The notes below the pieces were generated by a model that was given only the letters and a program-made list of their open reading frames with translations, was not told where the DNA came from and ran no database searches. Both the position numbers and the translations under genes were made by a program. From NCBI GenBank assembly GCA_025934435.1, contig JAICYB010000006.1:1-64000 (forward strand): DNA of 64,000 nucleotides, given 5' to 3'. Source of the DNA: Actinomycetes bacterium. GTDB taxonomy: Bacteria > Actinomycetota > JAICYB01. Each line of letters begins with the position of its first letter. Position 1 is the first letter of the stretch. Positions 27,038 through 44,858 of the stretch are shown here, piece after piece.

Positions 27038-30000
27038 CGAAGTCCTGCGTGCATCTGCACGTCCATACGGAATATTCGATGCTCGACGGCGCGGCGCGCA
27101 TCCGTCAGCTCACGAAAGAGGCCGCACGGCTCGGGATGCCGGCGCTCGCGATCACCGATCACGGCGTCCTGTACGGCCTCATCGACTTCTACCAGGCGTG
27201 TCACGAGGTCGGGATCAAGCCCATCCTCGGATGCGAGCTGTACCTCGCGCGTGAGTCGCGCTTCTCGAAGCTCAAGGGCGACGACAACCCGAAGACGATC
27301 CAGCACTTGACGGTCCTCGCGCGGAACGAGGCCGGCTACCGGAACCTGCTGAAGCTCGCGACGGCTGCGTCCCTCGAAGGGCTCTATTACAAGCCGCGCG
27401 TCGACATGGAGATCCTCGCCGAGCACGCCGAGGGCCTCATCGGCACGACCGGATGTCTGAACGGTCAGGTGCCTCGTCTCCTCCTCGAGGAGCGATTCGA
27501 AGACGCGCGGACGCAAGCGGGGAAGTGGCAGGACATCTTCGGGAAGGAGAACTTCTTCATCGAGCTCCAGGATCACGGGATCGCCGACCAGCGCAAGGTG
27601 AACCCGCACCTCATCGAGATGTCGTCGAAGCTCGGCATCCCGATGATCGCGACGAACGACCTTCACTACACCTCGCGCGCGGACGCCGAAGCTCACGACG
27701 TCCTTCTCTGCATCCAAACGGGCGCGACCATCGACGAACCGAACCGATTCAAGTTCGACGGCGACGAGTTCTACCTGAAGTCGCGTGAAGAGATGGACGC
27801 CGCACTCCCGCAGTACACAGACGCGATCGACCGCACCCTCGACGTGGCCGAGATGTGCGATGTCACGCTCCGGTTCGGGGAGTTCCAGCTGCCCGACTTC
27901 CTGCCGCCGGACGGATCAGACCTCGACACCTACCTCCGCCAGATGGTGATCGCCGGCGCCAAGCAGCGTTACGGCGATCCGTTGCCGCGCGAGGTGATGG
28001 CGCGCATCGAAGAGGAACTCGGCGTCATCGCGCGTATGGGGTTTGCCGGATACTTCCTCGTCGTCGGCGACCTCGTGCAGTGGGCGAGAGGGAAAGGGAT
28101 CCGGGTCGGTCCGGGACGAGGCTCCGCCGCCGGCACGATAACGACGTACTGCCTCGGGATCACGCTGCTCGAGCCGCTGCGCTACGGCCTCGTGTTCGAA
28201 CGGTTCCTCAATCCGGAACGCCACGAGATGCCGGACTTCGACATCGACTTCGACGAGCGCTATCGCAGCGAGGTCATCACGTACCTGCGTCAGAAGTACG
28301 GCGAAGATCGCGTTGCGCAGGTCGTGACGTTCGCAACGATCAAGGCGAAGAGCGGGATCCGTGACGCGGCGCGCGTCCTCGACTACCCGTACATGGTCGG
28401 CGACCGGCTCGCGAAGATGTTCCCGCGCTCGTTGCTCGGGAAGGATCCGTCGCTGCAGGACTGCTTCGAGCGCTCGTCCGACGCGAAGTGGACGTACGCG
28501 TACACGGAGGCAGCGGAGCTCCGGAAGGCGTACGAAGAGGAAGCCGACAGCAAGCGGATCCTCGACGCGGCCCGCAAGCTCGAAGGCCTGCGCCGTCAGT
28601 CCGGGGTGCATGCGGCGGCGTGCGTCATCTCACGCGAGCCGCTCACGAACTTCACAGCGCTCCAGCGGACGGACCAGGGCGACATCGTCACGCAGTACGA
28701 GATGAACGCGATCGGAGAGCTCGGGCTCCTGAAGATCGACGTTCTCGGTCTGGGCAACCTCACCGTCATCGAGCTGACGCTCGACATCCTGCGGTCGCAG
28801 GGCATCGAGTGCGACATCGACAACGTCCCGCTCGACGACCCGAAGGTCTACGAGCTCCTGCAGCGTGGCGACGTCGACGGCGTGTTCCAGCTGGAATCGG
28901 AAGGTATGCGCCGCCACCTCAAGGCGCTTCGTCCGGACCGGTTCGAAGACATCGTCGCCATGAACGCGTTGTACCGGCCGGGCCCGATGCAGGAGATCGA
29001 CAAGTACATCGCGGGCAAGCACAACCCCGAGCGAGTCAACTACGAGCACACGCTGCTCAAGGACGTCCTCGGCGACACGTTCGGCGTGATCGTCTACCAG
29101 GAACAGGTTCTGCAGCTGCTGCAACGCGTCGCCGGATACACGGTCGGGGAAGCCGACGTCGTGCGGAAGGCGATCGGTAAGAAGATCGAAAAGAAGATGA
29201 AGGCGGAGGAGCCGAAGTTCCTCGCCGGCGCCGAAGCGCAGGGACTCACCCTCGATCAGGCGAAGCATCTCTGGGAGCTCATCCAGCCGTTCGCGGGTTA
29301 CTCATTCAACCGCGCACACGCGGCGTGTTACGGCCTCGTCGCCTACCAGACGGCCTACCTCAAGTCGCACTATCCGGTCGCATACCTCTCGGCCCTCCTC
29401 ACAAAAGCGAGCGATACGAAAGACGAGAAGACGAAGTACCTCGCATCGGCTCGCAAGATGGGCCTCGAGGTGCTCCCGCCGGACGTCAATGGTTCGCAGG
29501 CGGGGTTCGCGCCGGACCCCGAGATGCCGGACAAGATCCGCTTCGGTCTCGGCGGGATCCGGAACGTCGGTGACGGCGTCGTCCAGCAGATCATCGCGGC
29601 GCGGCGTGAGGGCGGTCCGTTCAAGGACTTCTTCGATCTCTGCTGGCGCGTAGACGTGAGCGTCCTGAACAAGCGAACGATCGAGTCGATGGTGAAAGCC
29701 GGCGCATTCGACTCACTTGGACACGAACGAGGCGGACTGCTCGAGGTGTTCGAGGCGTCCGTCGAGCAGATCGCGTCGGCGCGACGTAAGGAAGCCGAAG
29801 GGTACGTCTCGCTGTTCGACGAACCGGGCGGCTCCGGCGACAAGACGCTCGTCGGCTCGCAGATGGCCGTTCCGGCGACGGAGCTTCCGAAGAGCGTGAT
29901 GCTCGCGTACGAGAAGGAGATGCTCGGCAACTACGTGACCGACCATCCGCTCGCCGGACTCGAGGACGTGCTCGCCATACAGACGGACGCGACACTCGCG

Positions 30001-30510
30001 TCCATCGCCGAGGTCGCGGACGGCGGGATCGTGACCGTCGCCGGGATCATCCACAAGGTCGGCAAGAAGTTCACGCGTAAGGGCGAGCTGATGCTGCTGC
30101 TCGACGTGGAGGACCTCGAAGCCGGTTGCGAGGTCATCGTGTTCCCCGCCGTCGCAGAGAAGGCCGGCGAGCTCGTTGCCGTCGACAAGGTGCTCTGCAT
30201 CCGGGGACGCGTCGACAAGAAGGACGACACACCGAAGCTCGTCGCGCTCGAGCTCACCGAACCCGATCTCGAGGCGATGACGGCACCGATCCGCCTGCGG
30301 ATCCCTGCCGTCGAGTGCACCGCCAAGCTGGTCGGCGAGCTGAGTTACGTGCTCAAGGAGTACCCGGGGAGTCGTCCCGTGTTCCTGCATCTGCTGTCGG
30401 GGGAGCGAGAGACGGTCTTCAAGCTCGGGTCGGAGTTCCGCGTCGATCCCGCGAACGGTTGCATCGACCGGCTGCGCCTGCTGCTCGGTCCCAAGGCCGT
30501 CGGCGTCTAG
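27034..30510 (+). CDS. dnaE: DNA polymerase III alpha subunit DnaE
   Basis: A 1158-residue replicative polymerase. The N-terminal PHP domain begins HLHVHTEYSMLDGAARI with metal-binding histidines. The C-family palm carries PDFDIDFDERYR with Asp401 and Asp403, and KIDVLGLGN with Asp569, the three catalytic aspartates. A helix-hairpin-helix region and a C-terminal OB fold (VTVAGIIHKVGKKFTRKGELMLLLDVED) follow. Length and layout fit DnaE1. Start is GTG at 27034, overlapping a mini-ORF; hisD follows after 21 bases. Confidence 0.96.
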   Translation: MTKSCVHLHVHTEYSMLDGAARIRQLTKEAARLGMPALAITDHGVLYGLIDFYQACHEVGIKPILGCELYLARESRFSKLKGDDNPKTIQHLTVLARNEAGYRNLLKLATAASLEGLYYKPRVDMEILAEHAEGLIGTTGCLNGQVPRLLLEERFEDARTQAGKWQDIFGKENFFIELQDHGIADQRKVNPHLIEMSSKLGIPMIATNDLHYTSRADAEAHDVLLCIQTGATIDEPNRFKFDGDEFYLKSREEMDAALPQYTDAIDRTLDVAEMCDVTLRFGEFQLPDFLPPDGSDLDTYLRQMVIAGAKQRYGDPLPREVMARIEEELGVIARMGFAGYFLVVGDLVQWARGKGIRVGPGRGSAAGTITTYCLGITLLEPLRYGLVFERFLNPERHEMPDFDIDFDERYRSEVITYLRQKYGEDRVAQVVTFATIKAKSGIRDAARVLDYPYMVGDRLAKMFPRSLLGKDPSLQDCFERSSDAKWTYAYTEAAELRKAYEEEADSKRILDAARKLEGLRRQSGVHAAACVISREPLTNFTALQRTDQGDIVTQYEMNAIGELGLLKIDVLGLGNLTVIELTLDILRSQGIECDIDNVPLDDPKVYELLQRGDVDGVFQLESEGMRRHLKALRPDRFEDIVAMNALYRPGPMQEIDKYIAGKHNPERVNYEHTLLKDVLGDTFGVIVYQEQVLQLLQRVAGYTVGEADVVRKAIGKKIEKKMKAEEPKFLAGAEAQGLTLDQAKHLWELIQPFAGYSFNRAHAACYGLVAYQTAYLKSHYPVAYLSALLTKASDTKDEKTKYLASARKMGLEVLPPDVNGSQAGFAPDPEMPDKIRFGLGGIRNVGDGVVQQIIAARREGGPFKDFFDLCWRVDVSVLNKRTIESMVKAGAFDSLGHERGGLLEVFEASVEQIASARRKEAEGYVSLFDEPGGSGDKTLVGSQMAVPATELPKSVMLAYEKEMLGNYVTDHPLAGLEDVLAIQTDATLASIAEVADGGIVTVAGIIHKVGKKFTRKGELMLLLDVEDLEAGCEVIVFPAVAEKAGELVAVDKVLCIRGRVDKKDDTPKLVALELTEPDLEAMTAPIRLRIPAVECTAKLVGELSYVLKEYPGSRPVFLHLLSGERETVFKLGSEFRVDPANGCIDRLRLLLGPKAVGV

Positions 30511-30516
30511 GGCAGT

Positions 30517-30522
30517 TAGGCT
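30517..30522 (+). promoter_or_regulatory. Possible -10 box for hisD (leaderless)
   Basis: TAGGCT lies nine bases before the hisD ATG in the 21-base gap after dnaE; no ribosome site is present. No -35 box can be named, so this is weak on its own. Confidence 0.3.
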
Positions 30523-30531
30523 TTTCCTCTT

Positions 30532-31827
30532 ATGCCACTCGAAGTCATCGATGCACGTACCGAGTTCCCCGACGTCCTGCGTAAGCGCGCGTCCTGGGAC
30601 TCCGCGGAGTACGTGAAGGAAGCCGCCGTCGTACGCCGCATCCTCGAGGAGGTCCGCGACCGCGGCGACATGGCCCTCCTCGAATACACGAAGTCGTTCG
30701 ACGGCGCGGACCTCGACGTCGGATCGATCCCCGTCGGCGTCGACGAGCGGGACGAAGCCGCCGCGCGCGTCGACAGGTCCGTCATCGACGCGCTCGCCGC
30801 CGCCGCCGAGCGGATCCGCATCTTCCACGAAGCGCAGCTCCCGCACGATTGGTCGATCGACCGTGACGGCGCCGTCGTCGGGCAGGTGTTCCGTCCGATC
30901 CGGCGTGTCGGTCTGTACGCGCCGGCCGGACGAACCGCTCTCCCGTCGACCGTGCTGATGACGGCGATCCCGGCTCGCGTAGCGGGTGTGGAGGGTCTCG
31001 TCCTTTGTACGCCGCCCGACACCACGGGCCGGCCGAACGACATCGTGATGGCCGCGGCGAAGGCCGTCGGGATCGAAGAGATCTACCGGGTCGGGGGAGC
31101 CCAGGCGATCGCCGCGATGGCCTACGGCACGTCGTCGGTCCCGGCATGCGACAAGGTCTGCGGCCCCGGCCGCATCTACACGACGCTCGCGAAGCAGCAG
31201 GTCTACGGACTCGTCGGTATCGACGGGTTGTTCGGTCCCTCGGAGTCGGTGGTCATAGCCGATGAACGGGCGAAGCCGTCGTACGCGGCAGCGGAGCTCC
31301 TCACGCAGGCGGAGCATGACCCCGATGCGGCCGCCGTGCTCATCACGACCTCGGAAGCGTTCCTCGGCGAGTGCTTGCGCGAAGTCGAAGTCCGGCTGCG
31401 CAAGCTTCCGAATGCGCGTGACATCCGAGACGCATTCACGGCGCACGGGCTTGCCGTCCTCGTCTCCGATCTCGAACGCGCCGCGGAGGTTGCGAACCTC
31501 CTCGCGCCCGAGCACGTTTGCATCCAGCTCGCCGACCCTGAGGCCTTCTTGCCGATGTTGCACGCGGCGGGGACCGCGCTCCTCGGTGACGACGCGGCGG
31601 CGACGCTCGGTGATTACTGCGCCGGTCCCTCACACGTCCTGCCGACGGCGCGCACCGCGCGGTTCCAGTCCGGGCTCGGGGTGCGCGATTTCCTGGTGTC
31701 GATCAACACGATCTCGTATACGCGCCAAGCGCTTTTCAATGACGCGCCGGTCGCCGACACGCTCGCCAACGCCGAAGGTTTGCAGGCGCACCGCGAGGAC
31801 GTGCACGTGCGGCTGGAAGAGCAGTGA
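30532..31827 (+). CDS. hisD: Histidinol dehydrogenase
   Basis: A 431-residue zinc enzyme that oxidises L-histidinol to L-histidine in two NAD steps. Recognisable blocks are RRVGLYAPAGRTALPSTVLM, GGAQAIAAMAYGT, KVCGPGR, DLLFGPSESVVIAD-like text (GLFGPSESVVIADE) and the catalytic LLAPEHVCIQL. The end GDYCAGPSHVLPT is typical. It is the first gene of a tight his cluster (hisD-C-B-H-A-F-I). Its stop overlaps the hisC start by four bases. Confidence 0.96.
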   Translation: MPLEVIDARTEFPDVLRKRASWDSAEYVKEAAVVRRILEEVRDRGDMALLEYTKSFDGADLDVGSIPVGVDERDEAAARVDRSVIDALAAAAERIRIFHEAQLPHDWSIDRDGAVVGQVFRPIRRVGLYAPAGRTALPSTVLMTAIPARVAGVEGLVLCTPPDTTGRPNDIVMAAAKAVGIEEIYRVGGAQAIAAMAYGTSSVPACDKVCGPGRIYTTLAKQQVYGLVGIDGLFGPSESVVIADERAKPSYAAAELLTQAEHDPDAAAVLITTSEAFLGECLREVEVRLRKLPNARDIRDAFTAHGLAVLVSDLERAAEVANLLAPEHVCIQLADPEAFLPMLHAAGTALLGDDAAATLGDYCAGPSHVLPTARTARFQSGLGVRDFLVSINTISYTRQALFNDAPVADTLANAEGLQAHREDVHVRLEEQ

Positions 31828-32873
31828 GGCCGCGTCCCCGGCCTGAATTGCAAGATCTCAAGCCCTATTCGTCTTCGGACATCGCCGGGGGCCGGATCCT
31901 CTTGCACGCGAACGAGAACCCGTACCCTTTGCCGCAACCGGTCATGGACGAGATCGCCGAAGCAACGCGGGCGCTCCAGCTCAACCGCTACCCGGCTCCC
32001 GATCCCGTCGAGCTGTATGAGCTGCTCGCGGAGTACAACGGCGTCGATCCGTCGCAGGTCTTTATCGGCGACGGCGCCAACGAGGTACTGCTGCAGTCGT
32101 GTCTCGCATACGGGGGCCCTGGACGGAAGGCCCTCCTCTTCGAGCCGACGTACGTCATGCACCACCGGCAAGCGCGTATGGCGGGAACGGCCGTCGCCGA
32201 GTCGCAGCGCAGCGAGGAGTTCGACATCAACATCGACGACGCGATCGCGACGATCGAGATCGAGCGTCCGGACATCGTGTTCCTGTGCTCGCCGAACAAC
32301 CCGACCGGAAACGTCACCTCGCTCGACGACGTCCGGCGGATCGCGGGCGTCACGAACGGTCTTCTCATCTGCGACGAGGCCTACTTCGAGTTCTGTGGAG
32401 TGACCGCCTTGCCGATGCTCGACGAACTGCCGAATGTGATCGTCGTCCGGACGTTGTCGAAAGCTTTCCGTCTCGCCGGCGTCCGCTTCGGCTACGGGAT
32501 CGCATCGCCGGAGCTGCTCGATCAACTGGGTCGTGTGCGGATGCCGTACGGGCAGTCATCGTTCACACAGATCGCGGCGCCCATCGTCCTGCGGCACAGG
32601 ACCGAGGTGCTGAAGACGGTCGAAACGATCGTGCTCGAGCGCGGACGGATCGAAGAGCGCGTCGCAGAACTTCCCGACACCGACGTCACCGAGGGCGGTG
32701 CGAACTTCATCTTCTTCACGCACCCCGAGGCGGAGCGCCTCATCGGAGGCCTGGCGGGCAAGGGCATCATCGTCCGCGACTTCACGAAGCAGGTTCCCGG
32801 CGCGATCCGCGTCACCGTCGGCACCCCGGCCGAGAACGACGAGTTCCTCGAGTCACTCACGGCCCTCGTGTAG
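31824..32873 (+). CDS. hisC: Histidinol-phosphate aminotransferase
   Basis: A 349-residue fold-type I PLP enzyme converting imidazole-acetol phosphate to histidinol phosphate. It shows LHANENPYPLP and NRYPAPDPVEL near the start, FLCSPNNPTGN, CDEAYFEF and the PLP-lysine text TLSKAFRLAGVRFGYG. The GTG at 31824 overlaps hisD by four bases (GTGA). Position between hisD and hisB supports HisC rather than another class II aminotransferase. Confidence 0.95.
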   Translation: MRPRPRPELQDLKPYSSSDIAGGRILLHANENPYPLPQPVMDEIAEATRALQLNRYPAPDPVELYELLAEYNGVDPSQVFIGDGANEVLLQSCLAYGGPGRKALLFEPTYVMHHRQARMAGTAVAESQRSEEFDINIDDAIATIEIERPDIVFLCSPNNPTGNVTSLDDVRRIAGVTNGLLICDEAYFEFCGVTALPMLDELPNVIVVRTLSKAFRLAGVRFGYGIASPELLDQLGRVRMPYGQSSFTQIAAPIVLRHRTEVLKTVETIVLERGRIEERVAELPDTDVTEGGANFIFFTHPEAERLIGGLAGKGIIVRDFTKQVPGAIRVTVGTPAENDEFLESLTALV

Positions 32874-32879
32874 GGCCCG

Positions 32880-32885
32880 TATCCT
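32880..32885 (+). promoter_or_regulatory. Possible internal -10 box for hisB
   Basis: TATCCT lies ten bases before the hisB ATG in the 22-base gap after hisC, the only real gap among hisD-hisF. No ribosome site is seen. Could mark an internal leaderless start. Confidence 0.28.
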
Positions 32886-32895
32886 TGTTCTCCCC

Positions 32896-33480
32896 ATGCG
32901 GAAGGCCCGCGTCGAACGGCGCACCGGCGAAACGGATGTGGTGGTCGATCTCACCATCGATGGATCGGGTGAGACGTCCGCCTCCACCGGCGTGCCGTTC
33001 TTCGATCACATGCTCTCGCAGCTCGGCCGCCACGCCGGCTTCGATCTGCTCGTCGAGGCGAAAGGCGACCTCGAGATCGATGCGCACCACACCGTCGAAG
33101 ACGTCGGTCTCGCCCTCGGCGACGCGCTGAAGGAAGCCCTCGGCGACAAGGCCGGGATCAATCGATACGGCTCCGTCCTCGTGCCGATGGAGGAGTCGCT
33201 CGTGCAGGTTGCGCTCGATCTTTCCGGACGTCCGTTCCTCGCGCACGACGTACCCGTTCCGGTCGACAGGATCGGTGAGTACGACCCGAAGCTGACGAAC
33301 GAATTCCTGCGTGCGCTCACGAACCGCGCGGGGATCACGCTCCACATCAAGCTGCTGGACGGATCCGACCCGCACCACATCGTCGAGGGTGAGTTCAAGG
33401 CTCTCGCGCGTGCGCTCGGTCAAGCGTGCGCGTTCTCGGGCCGTGCTTCACTGCCCTCGACCAAAGGCGTCCTCGAATGA
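32896..33480 (+). CDS. hisB: Imidazoleglycerol-phosphate dehydratase
   Basis: A 194-residue monofunctional HisB (no phosphatase domain) that dehydrates imidazole glycerol phosphate. The manganese-binding repeats are clear: FFDHMLSQLGRHAGFDL and DAHHTVEDVGLALGDAL in the first half, and HIVEGEFKALARAL in the second. Start is ATG at 32896; the upstream open frame is a shadow of hisC. The stop overlaps the hisH ATG (ATGA). Confidence 0.96.
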   Translation: MRKARVERRTGETDVVVDLTIDGSGETSASTGVPFFDHMLSQLGRHAGFDLLVEAKGDLEIDAHHTVEDVGLALGDALKEALGDKAGINRYGSVLVPMEESLVQVALDLSGRPFLAHDVPVPVDRIGEYDPKLTNEFLRALTNRAGITLHIKLLDGSDPHHIVEGEFKALARALGQACAFSGRASLPSTKGVLE

Positions 33481-34082
33481 CGGTCGCCGCGCTGATCGAC
33501 TACGACCTCGGCAACCTCCCGAGCGTGACGAAGGCCGTTGAGCGTGTCGGCGTGAAGGTGGAGATCGTCGATCGCGGCGAACAGCTGACCGAGTCGTTCG
33601 ACGCCGTGATCCTGCCCGGCGTCGGACACTTCGGCACCGGCGCCCGCAACCTCACCGCGCGCGGCTTCGACGAGCCGCTCAAGCGGTGGGCGGCGTCCGG
33701 CGCGCCGCTGCTCGGCATCTGCGTTGGGCTCCAGCTCTTCTGCGATACATCCGACGAGGACGAGACGGCGCGGGGGCTCGGCATCGTCCCCGGGCACGTG
33801 AAGCGCCTGAACGCGCCGAAGGTGCCGCACATGGGGTGGAACACGCTCGACGTCCGGCCCGAGTCGCGCGTGCTCTCCGCCGTCGAGCCGGGCGACATGG
33901 CGTATTTCGTGCACTCCTATTACGTCTGTCCGGACGAGAGCGCCGTCGCGGCGACGACGACCTACGACGAGACGTTCTGTGCCGCCGTCGAGATGGACAA
34001 CGTCGTCGGCGTCCAATTCCACCCCGAGAAGTCGGCGAACGTCGGACGGAAGCTGCTCGAGCGGTTCTTCGATGATCTTTGA
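33477..34082 (+). CDS. hisH: Imidazole glycerol phosphate synthase glutaminase subunit
   Basis: A 201-residue class I glutamine amidotransferase that supplies ammonia to HisF. The nucleophile Cys82 sits in LLGICVGLQLF, and the His/Glu pair is in VQFHPEKSAN. The opening IDYDLGNLPSVTKA is the HisH phosphate-side motif (usually DYGMGNL). The ATG shares ATGA with hisB, and its end overlaps hisA by 11 bases. It should form a complex with the HisF encoded two genes on. Confidence 0.95.
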   Translation: MTVAALIDYDLGNLPSVTKAVERVGVKVEIVDRGEQLTESFDAVILPGVGHFGTGARNLTARGFDEPLKRWAASGAPLLGICVGLQLFCDTSDEDETARGLGIVPGHVKRLNAPKVPHMGWNTLDVRPESRVLSAVEPGDMAYFVHSYYVCPDESAVAATTTYDETFCAAVEMDNVVGVQFHPEKSANVGRKLLERFFDDL

Positions 34083-34788
34083 GGTCATCCCGTCGATCGA
34101 TCTCCTCGACGGCAACGTGGTTCGACTGAAGCGGGGTTCCTTCGACGACGTCACCGTGTACTCGGACAACCCGGTGGACACCGCGAAGCGCTGGGAAGTC
34201 GAAGGCGCGAACTGGATCCACATCGTCGATCTGAACGGCGCGCGCGACGGCAAACCTCTGCAGCGCGACATCGTCGAACGGATCGCGGTCGATCTCACGC
34301 TGAAGGTGCAGGTGGCCGGCGGGATCCGCACCATCGACCACGCGCTCGAGTACATGGAGACCTCGGCCGACCGCATCGTGATCGGCACGATCGACGACGA
34401 TCTGCTGCGCTTCGCCGTGGAGCAGCTCGGCCCCCGGCTCGTGGTGGCCGTCGATGCGCGAGACCGCGAGGTGCGCGTGTCGGGATGGCAGCGCGGAACG
34501 GGCGAGAACGTGATCGATGCGTGCGCGCGTTTCGCGCGGGCGGGGGTCGTCCGGCTGCTCGTGACGGACATCGCGCGGGACGGTGTCCTCGAAGGTCCGA
34601 ACGTCGACCTGTACCGTGAGATCGTCGAGGCTGCACAGGTGCCCGTGCTCGCGTCCGGCGGTGTGTCGAGCATCGACGACCTCAAGACCCTCGCGGCCGT
34701 CGAAGGCGTCGAGGGTGCGATCGTCGGGAAGGCGCTGTACACCGGAGCGGTTGACCTCGGTACGGCGATGAAAGCCTTCGTAGCGTGA
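34072..34788 (+). CDS. hisA: ProFAR isomerase HisA
   Basis: A 238-residue TIM barrel that isomerises ProFAR. The first catalytic aspartate is in [18 protein letters not shown], the second in [16 protein letters not shown], and phosphate loops are QVAGGIRT and ASGGVSS. Many actinobacteria use one dual enzyme, PriA, for both HisA and TrpF work. The first half reads like plain HisA ([13 protein letters not shown]), and a separate trpF-like gene exists at 44229, but that TrpF lacks its usual cysteine, so dual activity is worth considering. Confidence 0.93.
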
Positions 34789-35570
34789 CCCTCGCCAAGC
34801 GCGTGATCCCATGTCTCGACCTCGACAACGGGCGGGTCGTGAAAAGCGTGCAGTTCGTCGACACGCGCGACGCCGGCGATCCGGTGGAGCTCGCGATCCG
34901 CTACGACGAGCAAGGGGCGGACGAACTCTGCTTCCTCGACATCACCGCGTCGCCGGAAGGGCGCGAGACGACGTATGAGGTGTTGCGCGCGGCGGCCGAG
35001 CGCGTCTTCATCCCGCTCACGATCGGTGGTGGCGTGCGAACCGTCGACGATGTGCGCCGGCGCCTTCGTGCCGGTGCGGACAAGGTCTCGATGAACACCG
35101 CGGCGGTGCGCAGTCCGGATCTCGTCCGCGACGCGTCGGACGCGTTCGGGGCGCAGTGTGTCGTCGTCGCGATCGATGCACGGCGCGTCGAGGGCACGAA
35201 TTGGGAGGTCGTCCTCGAAGGCGGACGGGGCGCGCGCGGCGAAGAGCCGATCCGCAGCGGGATCGACGCGGTGGGATGGGCCGAGCAGGTACAGGAGCTC
35301 GGCGCGGGCGAGATCCTGCTCACGTCCTTCGACCGCGACGGTACGAAGGAGGGCTACGACATCGAGCTCACGCGGACGATCTCCGATGCCGTCGGCATCC
35401 CGGTCATCGCGTCCGGGGGCGCGGGAACGGCGGAGCATCTGGCGGAAGGCGTCATCGATGGACACGCCGACGCTGTGCTCGTGGCGTCGATCGTCCATTA
35501 CGGCACGTACACGGTGCGCGAGCTCAAAGACCACATGGCTTCACGAGGGATCCCGGTGAGGAACGTATGA
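34785..35570 (+). CDS. hisF: Imidazole glycerol phosphate synthase cyclase subunit
   Basis: A 261-residue TIM barrel that uses ammonia from HisH to make imidazole glycerol phosphate and AICAR. The start [19 protein letters not shown] contains the catalytic Asp, and the second is in [15 protein letters not shown]. The barrel-closing text [13 protein letters not shown] is typical. The GTG overlaps hisA by four bases. A 40-base gap with no evident signal separates it from hisI. Confidence 0.96.
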
Positions 35571-35610
35571 ACGACTGTGGAGCGCCGAGGCGCGGAACAA
35601 GCGAGATCAG

Positions 35611-35934
35611 ATGAAGATCGACGGACTGCAGTTCGATGAGAAGGGACTCGTCCCCGCGGTGGTGCAGGAAGCGGATACGGACGAGGTACTGATGATGGGC
35701 TTCATGAACGAAGACGCGCTCCGGACTACGTACGAGAAGGGACTCGTGACGTTCTGGTCGCGGTCGCGACAGGAGCTCTGGACCAAAGGTGAGACGTCCG
35801 GCAATCGCCTGCGGCTCGAGAAGATCTACTTCAACTGCGAGGACAACTCGCTGCTGGTGAAGGCGCGTCTCGAAGGCGACGCCGTCTGTCACACGGGGAA
35901 CCGAACGTGCTATTACCGCGAGCTCGAGCCGTGA
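35611..35934 (+). CDS. hisI: Phosphoribosyl-AMP cyclohydrolase
   Basis: A 107-residue zinc enzyme opening the purine ring of phosphoribosyl-AMP. The family text is complete: EVLMMGFMNEDALRTT, TFWSRSRQELWTKGETSGN and a Cys-rich end with FNCEDNS and CHTGNRTCYY. It is the single-domain form; no HisE domain is fused. Neither hisE nor hisG is in this window. It is the last his gene before the trp leader. Confidence 0.96.
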   Translation: MKIDGLQFDEKGLVPAVVQEADTDEVLMMGFMNEDALRTTYEKGLVTFWSRSRQELWTKGETSGNRLRLEKIYFNCEDNSLLVKARLEGDAVCHTGNRTCYYRELEP

Positions 35935-35940
35935 TAGCCT
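35935..35940 (+). promoter_or_regulatory. Possible -10 box of the trp leader
   Basis: TAGCCT follows the hisI stop immediately and lies 15 bases before the leader-peptide ATG. The identical hexamer precedes trpD. The -35 region is poor, so readthrough from the his genes remains an alternative. Confidence 0.35.
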
Positions 35941-35955
35941 TTGCGTGTGTTGAAC

Positions 35956-36000
35956 ATGACCGCGCGCGGTGTTGGCCGATGGGAGTGGCTGCCCGGATAG
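35956..36000 (+). CDS. trpL: trp leader peptide with two Trp codons
   Basis: A 14-residue frame, MTARGVGRWEWLPG, with tryptophan codons at 35980-35982 and 35986-35988, ending just where the antiterminator segment begins. Two Trp codons in a peptide of this size directly before a terminator and trpE is the classic attenuator design known from E. coli, Streptomyces and Corynebacterium. Ribosome stalling on scarce charged tRNA-Trp would prevent the terminator from forming. No Shine-Dalgarno sequence is obvious. Confidence 0.85.
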   Translation: MTARGVGRWEWLPG

Positions 36001-36067
36001 GCGGCTGACACCCGCGCGCGTAGGTTCGCGAGCCGCCTCGTCCGAAGCGAGGCGGCTTTTCTTATTT
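35999..36067 (+). terminator. trp attenuator: alternative antiterminator and terminator hairpins
   Basis: Terminator: AGCCGCCTCG (36031-36040) pairs perfectly with CGAGGCGGCT (36048-36057) around a seven-base loop, then TTTTCTTATTT. Antiterminator: AGGCGGCT at 35999-36006, right after the leader peptide, is identical to the 3' terminator arm and can capture 36031-36038. A third pairing, CGCGCGCGG (35961-35969) with CCGCGCGCG (36012-36020), could block the antiterminator when the leader is fully translated. trpE starts 10 bases after the T-run. Confidence 0.9.
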
Positions 36068-36077
36068 GCGAGGAGAC

Positions 36078-38159
36078 ATGGAGAGCTACAAGACGAAGGG
36101 CGGCATCAACATCCGGTGCAACGTCGAGCGGATACCGGTCGACGGTGCGATCGAGCCTGTGCTCGATGCGCTCGACTCTCGGCGGGGGGTCGTCCTCGCA
36201 TCGAGCTACGAATACCCGGGCCGCTACACGCGCTGGGACATGGGCTTCGTCGATCCGCCGGTCGCGCTGACCGCCCGCGGCCGCTCGTACGCGATCGAGG
36301 CGCTGAACGAGCGCGGCGAAGTGCTGCTCGGCGCGATCTCGAAGAGCATTGACCTCACGGGCGAGATCCCCGAAGTCGCCGAACGCTTCCCGGAGGAGCA
36401 GCGGTCGCGCAAGCCGACGATCTTCACGGTTATCCGCCGGCTCGTCGATCTCTTCGCGTCGCCCGACGACGGGCACCTCGGCCTGTACGGCGCGTTCGGT
36501 TACGACCTCGTGTTCCAGTTCGAACAGCTGAAGCTCCGACTGGGTCGCGGCGAGCAGCGTGACCTCGTGCTCTACCTGCCCGACGAGTTGATCGTCGTCG
36601 ACCACCGGCGCGTCGTCGCTGAGTGCCGTTCCTACGAGTTCGAGACTTTGGACGGATCTACGGAAGGGCTCGCGCGTACCGGGAAGCAGTACCCATTCCA
36701 AGGCGTGAAGAAGGTCGATCGCGAATGTGACCACGAACCCGGCGAGTACGCAGCGGTCGTCGAGGTTGCGCGCGATGCGTTCCATCGCGGCGATCTGTTC
36801 GAGGTCGTGCCGTCGCGGACATTCTTCCGTCCGTGTCCCGCGTCGCCGTCCGAGATCTTCCGTCGTCTTCGCGAACGGAACCCGTCGCCGTATGGATTCT
36901 TGATCAACCTCGGTGACCGCGAGTACTTGGTCGGCGCATCGCCCGAGATGTACGTGCGCGTCGAGGGGAACCGCGTCGAGACCTGTCCGATCGCCGGGAC
37001 GATCGCCCGCGGCGTCGACCCGATCGCCGACGCCGAACAGATCCGGACGATCCTCAACTCACCGAAGGACGAATCCGAGCTCACGATGTGCACGGACGTC
37101 GATAGGAACGACAAAGCGCGGATCTGCGTCCCGGGATCCGTCCGCGTGATCGGACGCCGTCAGATCGAGATGTACTCGCGCTTGATCCACACGGTCGACC
37201 ATGTCGAAGGGCGGCTCCGCGACGGGTACGACGCGCTCGACGCGTTCCTCACCCACGCGTGGGCGGTCACGGTCACCGGTGCGCCGAAGATCTGGGCGAT
37301 GCAGTTCGTCGAGGACCACGAACGTTCGGCGCGCGCGTGGTACGGCGGCGCCGTCGGGCTCATCGGTTTCGACGGACGTCTGAACACCGGCCTCACCTTG
37401 CGGACGATCCGCATCGCGGATGGGATCGCGGAGGTCCGCGCGGGCGCCACGCTGCTGTACGACTCCGATCCGCACGAGGAGGAAGCGGAGACCACGATGA
37501 AGGCGTCCGCGTTGCTCGATGCCATCTCACGTCCGCGCGCGACGGCGGCCACGCTCGAGGAGGTGACGACCGCACCGGGTCGCGGGAAGACCGTGCTGCT
37601 CGTCGATCACCAGGACTCGTTCGTGCACACGCTCGCGGACTATTTCCGCCAGACGGGGGCCGACGTCGTCACGTGGCGCGCCGGGTTCCCGCACGCCGAT
37701 CTCGACGCTTTGAAGCCCGATCTCGTCGTGCTCTCGCCGGGGCCGGGAACGCCGAAGGACTTCGACGTCTCGGGAACGTTGCAGGCGTGCACCGATCGTT
37801 CGCTGCCGGTGTTCGGCGTCTGTCTCGGTTTGCAGGGGATCGTCGAGCATTTCGGAGGAAGCCTCGGCACGCTCGAGTATCCGATGCACGGGAAGGCATC
37901 ACGCGTCGCCGGGTTGCAAGGGAGCGTCTTCGCTGCGTTCCCCGACGATTTCGTCGCCGGACGCTACCACTCCCTCTATGCCATCGAGATGCCGGACGAC
38001 CTCGAAGTGACGGCGATGTCCGATGACGGCGTCGTGATGGGCGTGCAGCACCGTGAGCTGCCGGTGTGGGCCGTGCAGTTCCATCCCGAGTCGATCCTCA
38101 CGCTCGGTGACCGCCTCGGGCACCGCTTGATCGCGAACGTGATGACCGCATTGCGGTGA
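36078..38159 (+). CDS. trpE: Anthranilate synthase, fused TrpE-TrpG
   Basis: A 693-residue fusion. Residues about 1-490 are component I, which makes anthranilate from chorismate ([57 protein letters not shown]). Residues about 510-693 are the glutaminase component II ([34 protein letters not shown] with the nucleophile Cys, AVQFHPES). Such fusions are known in rhizobia and some actinobacteria. A GAGGAG ribosome site precedes the ATG. Transcription should be controlled by the attenuator directly upstream. Confidence 0.94.
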
Positions 38160-39049
38160 TCGATCCGCGCGACGTCATCGCAGCGTGGGGTATCGAAGCG
38201 CGATCGTTCCGGCGCCCGGAGCGCGGGACGAACAACCTCGTCTGGATCGTCGACGACGGCTTCGTCCTGCGCGTGTACCAGAATCTCGACGCACGTCGGG
38301 TGGCTGCCGAGCATCGCTTGCTGGCGGCGATCGATGAGCATCGTCCGCCGTTCGCGGTGCCGATGCCGATCCCGATCGCCTCGGGCGGCGGCGAGACGAT
38401 AGTTGCGACGCCCGACGGACCCGCCGCGCTCTACTCGTTGCTGCTTGGGCGGATCGCCGGCGCCACGGACCTCGCGCTCGTGGGAGCGGCCGTCGGAGAC
38501 CTCATGGCCGTTCTCGGCGAGCTTCCGCACGATGTTGCGCCGATGGACTGGCGCGTCCCGCTGGCCGGCACTCATCCCGCCGTTCCCGACGTCGGCGCGC
38601 TCGTCGAGGAGCTGCGTGACGTCGCGCCGGACGCGGCCGGTCTCGACACGTTCGCGAATCTCTGGGAACGCGTCGATACCGATTACGAACGTGAGACCTT
38701 GCCTGTCCAGGTCTGCCACCTCGACGTTGGGATGAGCAACGTCCTCATCGACGGCGGGCGCGTAACGGCGATCCTCGACTTCGAGATCGCCGGGCTCGAT
38801 CTGCGCGTGAACGAGTTCGTCGGCGCCCTCGTGAATTGCACCGACACACCGGACGAAGAACGTGTCTTCACGGATGGGTTCAGGTCGTGCTTCGACCTAC
38901 GATCCGACGAATGGGCGGCCGTACCGCGGCTCCGTGTGCTGCGCCGGCTCGCGACAACCGTCTGGCGGGCCGGACGATGGCGCGAGGGGAAGGCGACGCT
39001 CGACGAGGTGCTCGCGCGGCTCGAGGCCTTACAGAACCTTTACATCTGA
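38156..39049 (+). CDS. APH-fold phosphotransferase (homoserine kinase II-like)
   Basis: A 297-residue protein of the aminoglycoside phosphotransferase/choline kinase fold. The catalytic loop is [12 protein letters not shown] and the metal-binding text [10 protein letters not shown]. The N-terminal part [20 protein letters not shown] resembles ThrB-type homoserine kinases, which belong to this fold, but the substrate cannot be told from sequence. The GTG shares GTGA with the trpE stop, so it is translated with the trp genes. Confidence 0.8.
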
Positions 39050-39111
39050 CAGACACGCGCCGACCACGTCCGGACGATGCTTCTTCCGTACGAACGAAAA
39101 GGAGGCATCGA

Positions 39112-39609
39112 ATGGGGAACTTCGTGAAGCGGAACATCGCGGTCATAGCGGCTGGTGCCGTGGTCATCGTCGGAGGGAGCTACGTCGGGGCGAAGGCGCT
39201 CACGGCGCCGCAGCAGGTGACGCTCGACGCCGCGAGCACCAGCCCGGCGCCGGCGAGCAGCGCGCAGGAGAGAGGTCTCGTGCGCGGGGAAGGCGTGTTC
39301 GCGCGCCGGAACGGCACGGTCACCGCGCAGGTGAACCGCGGCGTCCTGCAGAGCATCGACGGGACGACCCTCGTCATCTCCGAAGCGGACGGGACCACGC
39401 AGCGCGTCGAGACCACAAGTGATACGCGGTTCCGTCGTGACGGCAACAAGGCGTCGCTCTCCGACCTGAAGGCCGGCGACCACGTCGGAACGATCGTCGT
39501 CAAGCAAGGCGACGCGTACGTGACGCGCCTGGTTCGCGCGTTCTCACCCGGCGCCTGGAACTCACGGCGGTCGCAGCGTCTGCAGCGCCGGGGCGCGGCT
39601 AATCTCTGA
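39112..39609 (+). CDS. Exported DUF5666-like protein
   Basis: A 165-residue protein with an N-terminal transmembrane or signal segment (about residues 8-28, IAVIAAGAVVIVGGSYVGA), a Ser/Ala/Pro linker and a small beta domain (GVLQSIDGTTLVISEADGTTQRVETTSDTRFRR ... LKAGDHVGTIVVKQGDAYVTRLV), which looks like DUF5666. A near-perfect ribosome site (AAAAGGAGG) precedes the ATG. It lies four bases before a response-regulator gene, so it may be sensed by, or regulated with, the two-component system. Confidence 0.75.
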   Translation: MGNFVKRNIAVIAAGAVVIVGGSYVGAKALTAPQQVTLDAASTSPAPASSAQERGLVRGEGVFARRNGTVTAQVNRGVLQSIDGTTLVISEADGTTQRVETTSDTRFRRDGNKASLSDLKAGDHVGTIVVKQGDAYVTRLVRAFSPGAWNSRRSQRLQRRGAANL

Positions 39610-39612
39610 TAC

Positions 39613-40287
39613 GTGAAGCGAACCGTTCTTGTCGTCGAGGACGAGAAGGCGATCGCCGACGTCGTCGAGATGTATCTCGACCAAGGCAATTTCCGGACTC
39701 GTCTCGCGACGACGGGGGCCGAGGCGCGCAAGCAGCTCCAGGATCCGTCGATCGGCCTCGTGCTCCTCGATCTGGGGCTCCCGGACGACGACGGCCTCGA
39801 AGTCCTTCGCGAGATCCGAACGCGAGGTGCGCTTCCGGTCATCGTCGTCACGGCCAGAGACGGCGAGACCGATCGCATCCTCGGCCTGGAGCTCGGCGCC
39901 GACGACTACGTGACGAAACCGTTCTCGCCGCGCGAGCTCGTGGCGCGCGTGAAAGCGGTGCTTCGCCGGGAAGAGCGAACCGAGACGACGGACGGAACGC
40001 CCGTCGTCGCCGGAAGCGTCCGGCTCGATCCGACGTCGCGCGAAGTCCAGGTCCACGGTGCGGATGTCGAACTGACGCGGAAGGAGTTCGATCTGCTTGC
40101 CTACCTCGTCGCGCGTCCGGGCCGCGTCCTTTCGCGGACGCAGCTCCTCGAAGCGGTGTGGGGCTACCCGGACGACGTCGATTCGCGCACGGTCGACGTG
40201 CACATCGCGCAGCTCCGACGGAAGCTCGGCGATTCCTGTCCGCTCAAGACCGTGCGCGGGGTGGGGTACAAGGCGGATGGAGGCTAA
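39613..40287 (+). CDS. OmpR/PhoB-family response regulator
   Basis: A 224-residue regulator. The receiver domain has the acidic pocket VVEDE, the phosphoacceptor Asp53 in LLDLGLP and the lysine in YVTKPFSPRELVARV. The winged-helix DNA-binding domain (about residues 130-222) includes LTRKEFDLLAYLVARPGRVLSR and HIAQLRRKLGD. Start is GTG at 39613. The end overlaps the sensor kinase gene by 11 bases, so the two are partners. Confidence 0.94.
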   Translation: MKRTVLVVEDEKAIADVVEMYLDQGNFRTRLATTGAEARKQLQDPSIGLVLLDLGLPDDDGLEVLREIRTRGALPVIVVTARDGETDRILGLELGADDYVTKPFSPRELVARVKAVLRREERTETTDGTPVVAGSVRLDPTSREVQVHGADVELTRKEFDLLAYLVARPGRVLSRTQLLEAVWGYPDDVDSRTVDVHIAQLRRKLGDSCPLKTVRGVGYKADGG

Positions 40288-41557
40288 GAAGCGTTCGTCC
40301 CTCCGGCGGGTGCTCTTGCTGTCGATCGTCGGTTCGTCGCTCGGGGCCGTTCTCATCACGGCTCTCGTCACCGTCGGGCTGACTCGGATCGGCGCACCGC
40401 AGCGTGCGATCGCGTCGCTCCGGAACGAAGCATCGAGCGTCGCCGACGTCGCATCGGGGCTCCCGTGCGCGGACGCGGCCCGTCCGGCGCAGCTGGCGAG
40501 GCAACTCGGCGCGCGGGTGCGGTTCGTCCCGGACGGTTCGCGTCGTCTGCTCGCGTCGGTGACGCAAGCTGAAGGAAGGACGACGCTCCTCGGACGCGAT
40601 GTGTACTTCTCGTCGGTTCCGGCGACGATCTGCGGAACGACGGGCCGCTTGTTCGTGTTCACCGCCGTCACCGACGCGCCTGCGCTGCCGACCGGGTTCG
40701 GCCGGCGTCTCCTCCTCGCGGGGCTTCTTGCGTTCGCGGGCGCGTCGCTGCTCGCCTTCGTGTTGTCGCGCCGGATGTCGCGTCCGCTCAAGGAGCTTGC
40801 GGACGCCGCACGGTCGTTCAACGTACCGGCATCGCCGACGAACACCGACACGCTCGAGGTCGCGGAGCTCAAGGAGTCGCTCGCCGAGATGGTCACCGAT
40901 CTCCGCGACGCCCGCGACCGCGAAAAGGCCTTCCTGCTGTCGATCTCGCACGAGCTCCGCACGCCGTTGACCGCGATCCGCGGCTACGCCGAAGCGCTCG
41001 CGGACGGCACCGCGCGGCGTCCGCGCCAAGCCGGCGAGGTGATGCTCGGCGAGTCGAAGCGCCTCGAGCGGCTCGTGCAAGACCTGCTCGACCTCGGACG
41101 GATCGAAGCCGGGGAGTTCTCGATAGAGCTTCGCTCCGTCGACGTCTGCGACGTGGCGGCGTCCGTCGTCGACGCGCTGCGTCCGCTCGCGAAGGAGCAG
41201 GACGTGTCACTTGTGCTCGAGGCTTCGACGGCATCGGTCGTCCGCACCGATCCCGATCGTGTCCATCAGATGATCGCCAACCTCGTCGAGAACGCGATGC
41301 GAGTCGCACAGACGGTTCATGTCGAGGTGGCTCCGGCGTGCGTGCGGATCCGCGACGAAGGCCCGGGACTCGACGCAGAGGACGTCGCCCATGCCTTCGA
41401 GCGTTTCTATCTGTGGCGTCGCTATCGCGGCGATCGCGCCGTCGGCACCGGCCTCGGTCTCGCGATCGTCGGCGAGCTCGCGCGGCGTCTCGGCGTGAAG
41501 ATCAACATCACGTCAGATCACGGAACGACCTTCGAGCTCCGCTTCGATGCGTCGTAG
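40277..41557 (+). CDS. Sensor histidine kinase
   Basis: A 426-residue membrane kinase. Transmembrane helices lie at about residues 14-36 and 145-165, bracketing an extracytoplasmic sensor of about 110 residues of no known type with two cysteines. A HAMP region (RRMSRPLKELADAARSF) follows, then the HisKA text SISHELRTPLTAIRGYAEAL with the phosphorylated His225, and the ATPase motifs NLVENAMR, RDEGPGL and GTGLGLAIVGELARRLG. It overlaps the regulator upstream and the M28 lipoprotein gene downstream by 11 bases each. Confidence 0.93.
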   Translation: MEAKKRSSLRRVLLLSIVGSSLGAVLITALVTVGLTRIGAPQRAIASLRNEASSVADVASGLPCADAARPAQLARQLGARVRFVPDGSRRLLASVTQAEGRTTLLGRDVYFSSVPATICGTTGRLFVFTAVTDAPALPTGFGRRLLLAGLLAFAGASLLAFVLSRRMSRPLKELADAARSFNVPASPTNTDTLEVAELKESLAEMVTDLRDARDREKAFLLSISHELRTPLTAIRGYAEALADGTARRPRQAGEVMLGESKRLERLVQDLLDLGRIEAGEFSIELRSVDVCDVAASVVDALRPLAKEQDVSLVLEASTASVVRTDPDRVHQMIANLVENAMRVAQTVHVEVAPACVRIRDEGPGLDAEDVAHAFERFYLWRRYRGDRAVGTGLGLAIVGELARRLGVKINITSDHGTTFELRFDAS

Positions 41558-42464
41558 CGCGGTTCTCGTGTGCGCGCTGTTCCTCGTCGCGTCGTGCGGT
41601 CGGGAGCGCAGTGCACTGCCGACGGCGTCGCCGCCCCCGACGCCGCCTGCGACACCGACGGCCACGCCCGTTCCGACGCCGGATCCCGGCGCCTTCTCGC
41701 TCGCGAACGCGATGACGACCGACCGCTACCTCGCGCAGAAGATCGGCATCCGCGAAACGGGAACGCCTGGGGACGTCGCGACAGCGTCGTTCATCGTCTC
41801 GCAGCTCACGAAGATCGGTCTGCATGTCACGCAGCAGACGTTCCCGCTCCCGAAAGGCGGGACGTCGACCAACATCATCGGCGCACCGGCGAACTTCGAC
41901 ATCAACAAGCCGTATCTGATCGTCGGAGGCCATCGCGACTCGCTTCGCGGTCCGGGCGCGAACGACAACGGAACGGGCATCGCCGTGTCGCTCGAGGTCG
42001 CGCGAGCGCTGGCGGTTCGTCCGGCGCGTTTGCCCGTGCTGTTCGTCGCCTTCGGTGCGGAGGAGGTCGAACCCGACAAGAACCACTCGCATCACGTCGG
42101 GTCGAAGGCGTATGTCGCGGCGATGTCGGACGCCGCCCGTCGCGATCTCGTGTCGTTCCTGAACATCGACATGGTCGGATGGGGGACCGAGATCCACTGC
42201 CCGCGGATGGTGACCGGGACGACCGAAGGTGCCGACCGCTGCACGCGGATCGCGCGTCAGCTCGGGATCCCCGTCCTCGAGGAGGTGCAGCCGAACTACT
42301 CCGACCACGGCACGTTCATCCTCGCCAACATGGACGCCGCGTGGATCTGGGCCGGAGACGACCTCTGCTGCTACCACTCGCCCCGCGACACGATGTCGCG
42401 CGTGAAGCCCGACGAGGTCGACCGCGCCGGGAGGCTCGCCGTCGCGCTGCTCCGCAGCTATTAG
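41547..42464 (+). CDS. M28-family metallopeptidase lipoprotein
   Basis: A 305-residue exported protein. The lipobox LVASC marks Cys17 for lipidation by the LspA route; a linker of Pro/Thr/Ala repeats follows (residues 27-46). The zinc-binding residues of M28 aminopeptidases are readable: GGHRDSLRG, GANDNGTG, FGAEEVE, LNIDMVG and a late YHSPRDT. It is probably a cell-surface aminopeptidase or glutaminyl-cyclase-like enzyme. It starts inside the kinase gene, so it may be part of that regulon. Its TAG stop opens a possible -10 box for trpD. Confidence 0.87.
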   Translation: MRRSAVLVCALFLVASCGRERSALPTASPPPTPPATPTATPVPTPDPGAFSLANAMTTDRYLAQKIGIRETGTPGDVATASFIVSQLTKIGLHVTQQTFPLPKGGTSTNIIGAPANFDINKPYLIVGGHRDSLRGPGANDNGTGIAVSLEVARALAVRPARLPVLFVAFGAEEVEPDKNHSHHVGSKAYVAAMSDAARRDLVSFLNIDMVGWGTEIHCPRMVTGTTEGADRCTRIARQLGIPVLEEVQPNYSDHGTFILANMDAAWIWAGDDLCCYHSPRDTMSRVKPDEVDRAGRLAVALLRSY

Positions 42465-42467
42465 CCT
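42462..42467 (+). promoter_or_regulatory. Possible -10 box for trpD (leaderless)
   Basis: TAGCCT, nine bases before the trpD ATG, starts with the stop codon of the peptidase gene. The same hexamer occurs at the trp leader. No -35 is clear. Confidence 0.3.
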
Positions 42468-42476
42468 TGGTGCGGG

Positions 42477-43493
42477 ATGGCGATCCGTGAGGCGTTGGAC
42501 AAGCTGCTCGCCGGCACCGATCTGACGTCGGACGAAGCCGCCGGCGCGCTCGGCGAGATCGTGACCGGTGACGTCCCCGACGCGATGATCGCGGCCTTCC
42601 TCGTCGCGCTGCGGATCAAGGGCGAGACACCGGCCGAGGTCGCCGGGCTCGCGATGACCATGCGCGACAACGCCGTGGCGGTTCGTCCGCGCACGACCGG
42701 TCTCGTCGATACATGCGGGACCGGCGGGGACGGCACGGGCACGGCGAACATCTCGACGGCGGCCGCCTTCGTCGTCGCCGGCGCCGGGCTCCCGGTGGCG
42801 AAGCACGGGAACCGCGCGCTGTCGTCGACGTCGGGTTCGGCGGACGTCCTCGAGGTGCTCGGCGTGCCGCTCGACCTGACCGCGGACGACGTCGCGCGCT
42901 GCATCGACGAGGTCGGCATCGGTTTCATGTTCGCGCCGGCGTTCCATCCGGCGACGGCGAAGGTCATGCCCGTCCGGCGCGCGCTCGGGATCCGCACAGC
43001 GTTCAACGTCCTCGGCCCCCTGACAAATCCCGCTCGCCCGACGTATCAGCTCGTCGGTGTCGGAGACCCGGAGCAAGCGGATCTCATCGCGCACGCGCTG
43101 GCCGCACTCGGCGTGACCAAAGCGCTCGTCGTGGCCGGCGCCGGAGGCCCGGACGAGCTGACGTGCGCCGGCCCGAACATCGTGATCACCGTGCACGGAC
43201 ACGACATCACGCACGACATGATCGGTGCGTCCGACGTCGATCTCGACACGAGTCCGCTCGATGCGATCAAGGGTGGGACGCCCGAACAGAACGCGGAAAC
43301 GCTCCGGGCGGTGCTCGAAGGCAAGCCGGGCCCGGTCGGCGACTGTGTCCTGTTCAACGCCGGTGCGGCGTTCGTCGCCGCCGAGCAGGCATCGACGATC
43401 GCGAACGGCGTCGAACACGCGCGAGCGGTTATCTCCGACGGCCGGGCACTCGCCGCTCTCGATCGCTACCTCGCATTCGTCGGTTCGTTGTGA
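42477..43493 (+). CDS. trpD: Anthranilate phosphoribosyltransferase
   Basis: A 338-residue enzyme joining anthranilate to PRPP. The N-terminal helices are followed by the signature DTCGTGGDGTGTANISTAAAFVVAGAGLPVAKHGNRALSS (pyrophosphate and anthranilate sites) and FAPAFHPATAKVMPVRRALGIRTAFNVLGPLTNPA. Start is ATG at 42477, 12 bases after the peptidase gene. It begins the second trp block, separated from trpE by five genes. Its stop shares TTGTGA with the trpC GTG. Confidence 0.95.
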   Translation: MAIREALDKLLAGTDLTSDEAAGALGEIVTGDVPDAMIAAFLVALRIKGETPAEVAGLAMTMRDNAVAVRPRTTGLVDTCGTGGDGTGTANISTAAAFVVAGAGLPVAKHGNRALSSTSGSADVLEVLGVPLDLTADDVARCIDEVGIGFMFAPAFHPATAKVMPVRRALGIRTAFNVLGPLTNPARPTYQLVGVGDPEQADLIAHALAALGVTKALVVAGAGGPDELTCAGPNIVITVHGHDITHDMIGASDVDLDTSPLDAIKGGTPEQNAETLRAVLEGKPGPVGDCVLFNAGAAFVAAEQASTIANGVEHARAVISDGRALAALDRYLAFVGSL

Positions 43494-44239
43494 GCTTCCT
43501 CGAGCGCATCGTCGCTTCGCGACGCGCGGCGATCGCGTCACTCCGGCCGTCGCTCGACGGCGCGCAGCCGCCGGTCCGCGACTTCCGAACCGCGCTCGCG
43601 GCGCCCGGGATGTCGCTCATCGCCGAGATCAAGCGGCGCTCACCGTCGAAGGGCGACCTGAATCCATCGCTCGATCCCGCCACGATGGCGAAGTCGTACG
43701 AGCACGCCGGTGCTCGCGCGGTCTCGGTGCTGTGCGAGCCGGAGTTCTTCGGTGGTTCGTCCGACGATCTCGTCGCGGCTCGCGAAGCGACGGACGTCCC
43801 GGTTCTGTGGAAGGACTTCGTCCTCGAGCGTGTGCAACTCGAAGAGGCTCGTTCGAAAGGGGCGGACGCCGCCCTGCTGATCGTCCGCATGCTCGACGAC
43901 GAGCTCGCGTCCCTCGTCGCGGCGTGCCGAGAGCTCGGGTTGATGCCACTGGTCGAGATCTTCAACGAGGAAGATCTGCGGCGGGCGCTCGATGCCGGCG
44001 CCGACGTCGTCGGGGTGAACCACCGCGACCTCGAGACCTTCGAAGAAGATCCTGAAGCGACGAAGCGATTGCGTCCGCTCGTTCCGGATGACGTCATCCT
44101 CGTTGCCGAGTCGGCGATCGAGACGCGCGCCGACGTCGAAGCGCTCGAAGCGATCGGTGTGCAGGCGATGCTCGTCGGTGAGGCGATCGTGACCGCGGGC
44201 GATCCTGAGGCGAAGATCAGGGAACTGCTTGGGGCTTAG
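43490..44239 (+). CDS. trpC: Indole-3-glycerol phosphate synthase
   Basis: A 249-residue TIM barrel closing the indole ring. The family text is clear: SLIAEIKRRSPSKGDL with the catalytic lysine, LCEPEFFGGS, PVLWKDFVLE, VEIFNEEDL, GVNHRDLETF and LVAESAIET. The GTG at 43490 shares GTGA with trpD; the long open frame upstream is a shadow of trpD. The end overlaps trpF by 11 bases. Confidence 0.95.
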   Translation: MSFLERIVASRRAAIASLRPSLDGAQPPVRDFRTALAAPGMSLIAEIKRRSPSKGDLNPSLDPATMAKSYEHAGARAVSVLCEPEFFGGSSDDLVAAREATDVPVLWKDFVLERVQLEEARSKGADAALLIVRMLDDELASLVAACRELGLMPLVEIFNEEDLRRALDAGADVVGVNHRDLETFEEDPEATKRLRPLVPDDVILVAESAIETRADVEALEAIGVQAMLVGEAIVTAGDPEAKIRELLGA

Positions 44240-44855: not shown

Positions 44856-44858
44856 ACT
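44853..44858 (+). promoter_or_regulatory. Possible -10 box for trpB (leaderless)
   Basis: TAGACT, six bases before the trpB GTG, begins with the trpF stop codon. A short GGGG lies between, so ordinary ribosome binding is also possible. Confidence 0.25.

Follow-up and report, generated by a model that had tools for sequence, protein, structure and literature searches.

The window, the whole 64 kb stretch of DNA that was analysed, contains a hisDCBHAFI cluster followed directly by a short leader and a fused trpE(G) gene. The features of this region are listed below.

35611..35934, + strand: hisI (phosphoribosyl-AMP cyclohydrolase), last gene of the hisDCBHAFI cluster (NCBIfam PRK00051, 133 bits, cut-off 126)
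35935..35940, + strand: TAGCCT, weak candidate -10 element by its position 6 nt ahead of the in-frame GTG 35947, a possible leaderless start (3/6 match to TATAAT)
35956..36000, + strand: trpL leader ORF, MTARGVGRWEWLPG* (sequence; Trp-codon region aligns with the WWW leaders of other trpE(G) loci)
35961..35978, + strand: segment 1, pairing with 36002-36010 and 36012-36020 in the 1:2 protector hairpin of about -37 kcal/mol (folding)
35999..36006, + strand: segment 2, antiterminator 5' arm AGGCGGCT, with 8 perfect pairs to 36031-36038 (folding)
36030..36041, + strand: segment 3, terminator 5' arm, of which 36031-36038 is common to the antiterminator (folding, terminator scan)
36047..36058, + strand: segment 4, terminator 3' arm (folding, terminator scan)
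36059..36068, + strand: T-rich tail of the intrinsic terminator, TTCTTATTTG (sequence, terminator scan)
36078..38159, + strand: trpE(G), fused anthranilate synthase components I and II, the regulated gene (TIGR01815 TrpE-clade3, 1093 bits, cut-off 739)

The TrpEG protein belongs to the TIGR01815 TrpE-clade3 family over residues 4-691. The ATG of its gene (36078) is preceded by GAGGAG at 36070-36075. Between trpE(G) and trpDCFBA (38156-42461), the window encodes a kinase-like protein (homoserine kinase/APH family), a response regulator, a histidine kinase, and a peptidase-like protein; a similar regulator pair lies 3' of trpE in the sister genus (G001).

The leader ORF starts at ATG 35956, consists of 14 codons (MTARGVGRWEWLPG), and ends with the stop codon TAG at 35998-36000. 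Its Trp codons are located at 35980-35982 (Trp9) and 35986-35988 (Trp11). The 14-residue leader with two Trp codons that had been predicted was confirmed base for base, at 35956-36000. As in the ribosome-mediated trp attenuators, a short ORF with Trp codons, here a predicted translation, lies just 5' of the structural gene. The putative start codon is the uncertain point of trpL, given that three in-frame alternatives lie 5' of the ATG (TTG 35950, GTG 35947, and TTG 35941), and that no Shine-Dalgarno sequence was found ahead of ATG 35956.

The leader ORF is followed by an intrinsic terminator (36030-36058), which contains ten Watson-Crick pairs (36031-36040 with 36048-36057), or 12 pairs including the flanking G-U pairs. 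It is the strongest terminator-like site within 27000-46500 (19.5 kb), and its end is 19 nt from the ATG of trpE(G). The antiterminator segment AGGCGGCT (35999-36006) overlaps the end of the leader ORF. It recurs without change at 36050-36057 of the terminator 3' arm, and is the perfect complement of AGCCGCCT at 36031-36038. The antiterminator and the terminator share 36031-36038 and are mutually exclusive, which is also characteristic of the ribosome-mediated trp attenuators. The original prediction was correct in these respects: the perfect 8-mer identity and pairing of 35999-36006, the ten perfect pairs with a T-rich tail, and trpE (ATG 36078) right after the terminator.

A pattern script was used, which looked for a short ORF with no more than one codon between its two Trp codons, and required a terminator after it as well as an antiterminator match of 8 nt. 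The complete pattern occurred once in the 64 kb, and was absent from 40 dinucleotide shuffles (both strands). When the antiterminator requirement was omitted, the W-W ORF with a terminator occurred 0.05 times per shuffled window. The whole leader also folds better than its own shuffles (z -3.1).

Constrained folding of the nascent RNA up to 36043, i.e. before the terminator 3' arm exists, showed that the probability of 2:3 pairing is 0.002 in the free RNA. A ribosome placed at Trp9 or Trp11 raises it to 0.994 or 0.976, respectively, and one at the stop codon gives 0.000. When a ribosome footprint of 30 nt was moved along the leader, with footprint sizes and positions assumed, this probability was high only with the ribosome 3' edge between about 35988 and 35998, corresponding to stalls at codons 9-11. 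Folding with and without a ribosome on codons 9-11, as the original prediction had suggested, thus separates the stalled state (0.98-0.99) from the free RNA (0.002). In silico, the ribosome position at the Trp codons sets the pairing, as in the ribosome-mediated trp attenuators. Taken alone, the 2:3 and 3:4 hairpins are predicted to be equally stable (-23.2 kcal/mol each). For the full transcript at equilibrium, the terminator is preferred in every state (P 0.96-1.0, even with a stalled ribosome); therefore the switch would be kinetic, as expected for this class of attenuators. Since the 1:2 hairpin is very strong (-37 kcal/mol), termination would be the default without leader translation.

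Relatives of the site were searched by a TrpEG protein scan of genome contigs, which identified 80 loci in a wide range of phyla. Of these, about 30, from several phyla, have the same layout at trpE(G): the leader has a W run, its first Trp codon is followed after 16-23 nt by a GGCGGC-like segment, and the terminator has the form GCCGYC...GGCGG. These include Rhizobiaceae, Thalassospira, Skermanella, Binatota, and one MAG each of Chloroflexota (L037), Acidimicrobiales (L043), and Polyangiaceae (L052). No leader of such layout was detected when the trpE(G) loci of Cyanobacteria and Legionella in the set were examined. The terminators of some relatives (e.g. L089, L099, and L105) were anchored on the GGCGG arm, and segment 2 of L082 was assigned by hand. 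One attenuator layout therefore accompanies the fused trpE(G) across many phyla, and the window adds a clear case from a barely sampled lineage.

A covariance model (R2) was built from 18 relatives with the window excluded, and was used as an independent test; a further model (R1) had included the window. The R2 model matched the window site with 39.6 bits (E 9.3e-5 over the whole 3.3 Mb genome), and this was the only significant match in its own genome (next E 0.87). Over 27 distinct sequences, pairing in the 3:4 helix amounts to 92.6%, and two of its pairs show changes in both partners; the covariation of the 2:3 helix is not above shuffled controls. The antiterminator argument therefore rests on sequence conservation. 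Covarying pairings had been raised as a check, and a modest covariation was found for the 3:4 helix but not for the 2:3 helix. Likewise, the leader layout is conserved in relatives, but their Trp codons are adjacent (WW or WWW) rather than WxW.

Because about 30 other loci have adjacent Trp codons, the WEW of the window is best read as WWW minus the middle Trp. Most simply, it may represent a WWW run whose middle codon was changed to GAG. The two remaining Trp codons are split by Glu, which should weaken the sensitivity of the leader. The leaders of the Candidatus Binatota attenuators (L033, L036, L039, and L041) contain WWWLP, with WWW in place of the WEW of the window; L033 has TGGTGGTGGCTGCCTGCGTAGGCGGC at the position where the window has TGGGAGTGGCTGCCCGGATAGGCGGC. 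The distance from the Trp codons to segment 2 in this group is 19 nt, identical to the window, and L033 is the closest to the window by TrpEG path length. However, the Binatota loci have promoter-like elements just 5' of the leader, and no his genes were detected beside their trpE(G).

Several characterised systems share these features. The trpE(G) gene of Sinorhizobium meliloti is controlled by attenuation with a 14-residue leader peptide, and the terminated RNA rnTrpL begins at the leader ATG (PMC7298713). The fused target, the 14-residue leader, the Trp codons near its end, and the termination 5' of trpE(G) are all similar to the window (PMC7298713). The window site differs in its WEW instead of WWW, its strong 1:2 hairpin, its position directly after hisI, and the lack of a clear leaderless promoter. 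The sRNA RcsR1 is transcribed from a position identical to rnTrpL (PMC7143759), and RcsR1/rnTrpL corresponds to RF02552 in Rfam. The Rhizobium locus L062 contains the GGCGGC segment and an AGCCGCC...GGCGGCT terminator, and matches RF02552 with 100.3 bits. The window site scores 12.9 bits (E 5.3) against a gathering threshold of 60 bits, and is outside RF02552 by the Rfam criterion, despite the common layout. Rfam classes RF02552 as an sRNA (RcsR1), yet it matches the rhizobial trpL attenuator (L062 3828-3924); the entry type hides a cis-regulatory role.

The trp attenuators of Streptomyces and Corynebacterium have a leader with double or triple UGG and a GC-rich terminator (PMC1262725). The trp and trpS attenuators of these genera differ from the window in their target, which is an unfused trpE or trpS. 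The Escherichia coli trp attenuator combines a Trp-codon leader with regions I to IV, which form alternative hairpins (PMC1183508). Its mechanism appears to be alike. Unlike the window, E. coli has adjacent Trp codons, and the trp repressor as a second control. Given the attenuators of Rhizobium and Streptomyces, this type was already known, and neither the fused target nor the his-trp placement brings a new mechanism. The fused trpE-trpG had been put forward as a new case, but the S. meliloti trpLE(G) was already characterised (PMC7298713).

In Rfam, no family matched the site at the gathering threshold. Relaxed matches to BcKCsr2 and RcsR1 fell below threshold, and both were rejected as the identity of the site. 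The T-box family (RF00230) had no match in the window at the gathering threshold, or around the site at a relaxed threshold. T-box-like leaders (with a GGTGGCACCACG motif) were observed upstream of trpE(G) in the Chloroflexota loci L044, L047, L051, and L059, where they replace the Trp-leader attenuator; L047 scores 41.5 bits against RF00230, below the gathering score of 93. These loci may combine the same gene family with a different, T-box-like Trp sensor. Such Chloroflexota relatives (L047) provide a precedent for control of the window trpE(G) by another type of Trp regulator, e.g. a T-box, but neither a T-box nor another known family was found at the site at gathering or relaxed thresholds, which makes this explanation exceedingly improbable.

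The sigma-70 consensus scan found no promoter for the leader. Across 25 relatives, the leader start is preceded by a -10-like peak at 7 nt and a -35-like peak at 30 nt, with a 17-nt spacer, a spacing that fits leaderless transcription by analogy with S. meliloti. At the aligned positions ahead of ATG 35956, the window has no such peaks. Unless the candidate TAGCCT/GTG 35947 promoter is used, transcription would come from the his operon, and the attenuator would therefore be a gate on his readthrough.

Taken together, the site is very probably a ribosome-mediated transcription attenuator that controls trpE(G). The folding, the shuffle control, and the comparative evidence support the classical attenuation that the original prediction had read from the parts. 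The his operon, or a promoter close to the end of hisI, would be the source of transcription into the leader. When charged tRNA-Trp is plentiful, the ribosome would reach the stop codon and mask segment 2 (35999-36006); segment 3 would then pair with segment 4, and RNA polymerase would terminate at about 36060. When charged tRNA-Trp is scarce, the ribosome would stall at Trp9 or Trp11 and block the 1:2 pairing. The stalled ribosome would leave segment 2 just free, so that it could bind segment 3 ahead of the synthesis of segment 4, and trpE(G) would be transcribed. If no ribosome is translating, the 1:2 hairpin would form, followed by termination. The stalling itself and the efficiency of termination are what we infer in this scheme.

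The same hairpin might instead be a constitutive terminator of the his operon, with leakage or a different promoter accounting for the expression of trpE(G), and with the leader ORF a decayed relic that no longer senses Trp. The distance of only 21 nt from the end of hisI to the leader ATG, the leader without a convincing promoter or Shine-Dalgarno sequence, the apparent decay of the Trp run from WWW to WEW, and the full-length fold that always favours the terminator are consistent with this explanation. However, a relic would not be expected to retain segment 2 and its complement as an intact perfect 8-mer, the 19 nt from the Trp codons to segment 2 as in the Binatota relatives, or the sharp switch at codons 9-11 in folding. 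A constitutive his terminator is therefore considered improbable.

Besides cis attenuation, the terminated leader RNA might also act in trans as an sRNA, or through its leader peptide, as do rnTrpL/peTrpL of S. meliloti. The layout is shared with the rhizobial RNA, which acts on trpDC (PMC7143759), and trpDCFBA begins 4.3 kb downstream in the window. Nevertheless, trpD did not stand out when gene starts were scanned by duplex energy, nor was specific complementarity revealed, and there is no sequence conservation outside the core, so that an additional role in trans is unlikely.

The ribosome-mediated attenuator occupies a his-trp boundary that had been regarded as new. This junction is an ordinary gene order in the phylum: among 29 TrpE loci from it, 15 carry hisI or hisF no further than about 1.5 kb upstream of trpE. 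None of these 15 loci has a convincing Trp leader in the his-trp gap. What is new locally is the comparison with the sister genus G001 (another genus of the same family), whose slot holds an unfused trpE without an attenuator. In G001, hisDCBHAFI is followed by an unfused TrpE, with a likely start overlapping the hisI stop; no leader or attenuator was found at this junction. The best match of this TrpE is PRK13571, of actinobacterial type. Further on, G001 contains a response regulator 68% identical to that of the window, and a histidine kinase. Only two of the 397 sampled genomes of the phylum exceed the TrpE-clade3 cut-off. Because G001 has an unfused, leaderless trpE in a similar his/regulator context, trpE(G) and its attenuator probably displaced the resident unfused trpE in situ, downstream of hisI. 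The window and the sister genus form a natural before-and-after pair, in which an attenuated gene replaces an attenuator-free one in the same operon slot.

In a quick tree, the window TrpEG grouped with Binatota, Myxococcota, and Rokubacteria (SH-aLRT 91-92). This placement was not upheld by a careful tree, in which the window TrpEG was not firmly placed, and a grouping with Acidimicrobiia was not rejected (p-AU 0.28). The 27-nt RNA core of the window matches the trpS-type leader L128 of the same phylum at 21 of 27 positions, equal to its match with the Binatota L033. Since the two match equally and the core is short, RNA similarity cannot name the donor. Tentatively, and with more doubt than confidence, trpE(G) and its attenuator might have moved between phyla as a self-regulated cassette into the his-trp slot, replaced an unregulated hisI-coupled trpE, lost their own promoter, and now gate his readthrough. 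If so, the Trp supply would decide whether his transcription extends into trp.

The R1 matches in genomes of the same phylum include similar sites ahead of TrpE-like and TrpS-like ORFs. From a reading of their ORFs, these genomes were tentatively attributed to Streptomyces. The same ORFs, together with the actinobacterial-type TrpE of G001 and the gene order, point to Actinomycetota as the probable phylum. Two further attenuator-like sites with WWW or WW leaders were found by R1 in such genomes (L120 1501-1588 and L121 1501-1579). The ORFs 3' of these sites are, by eye, not trp-like, but tautomerase-like and FAD-dependent oxidoreductase-like, respectively; the two sites could be chance matches, or could belong to unrecognised Trp-responsive genes.
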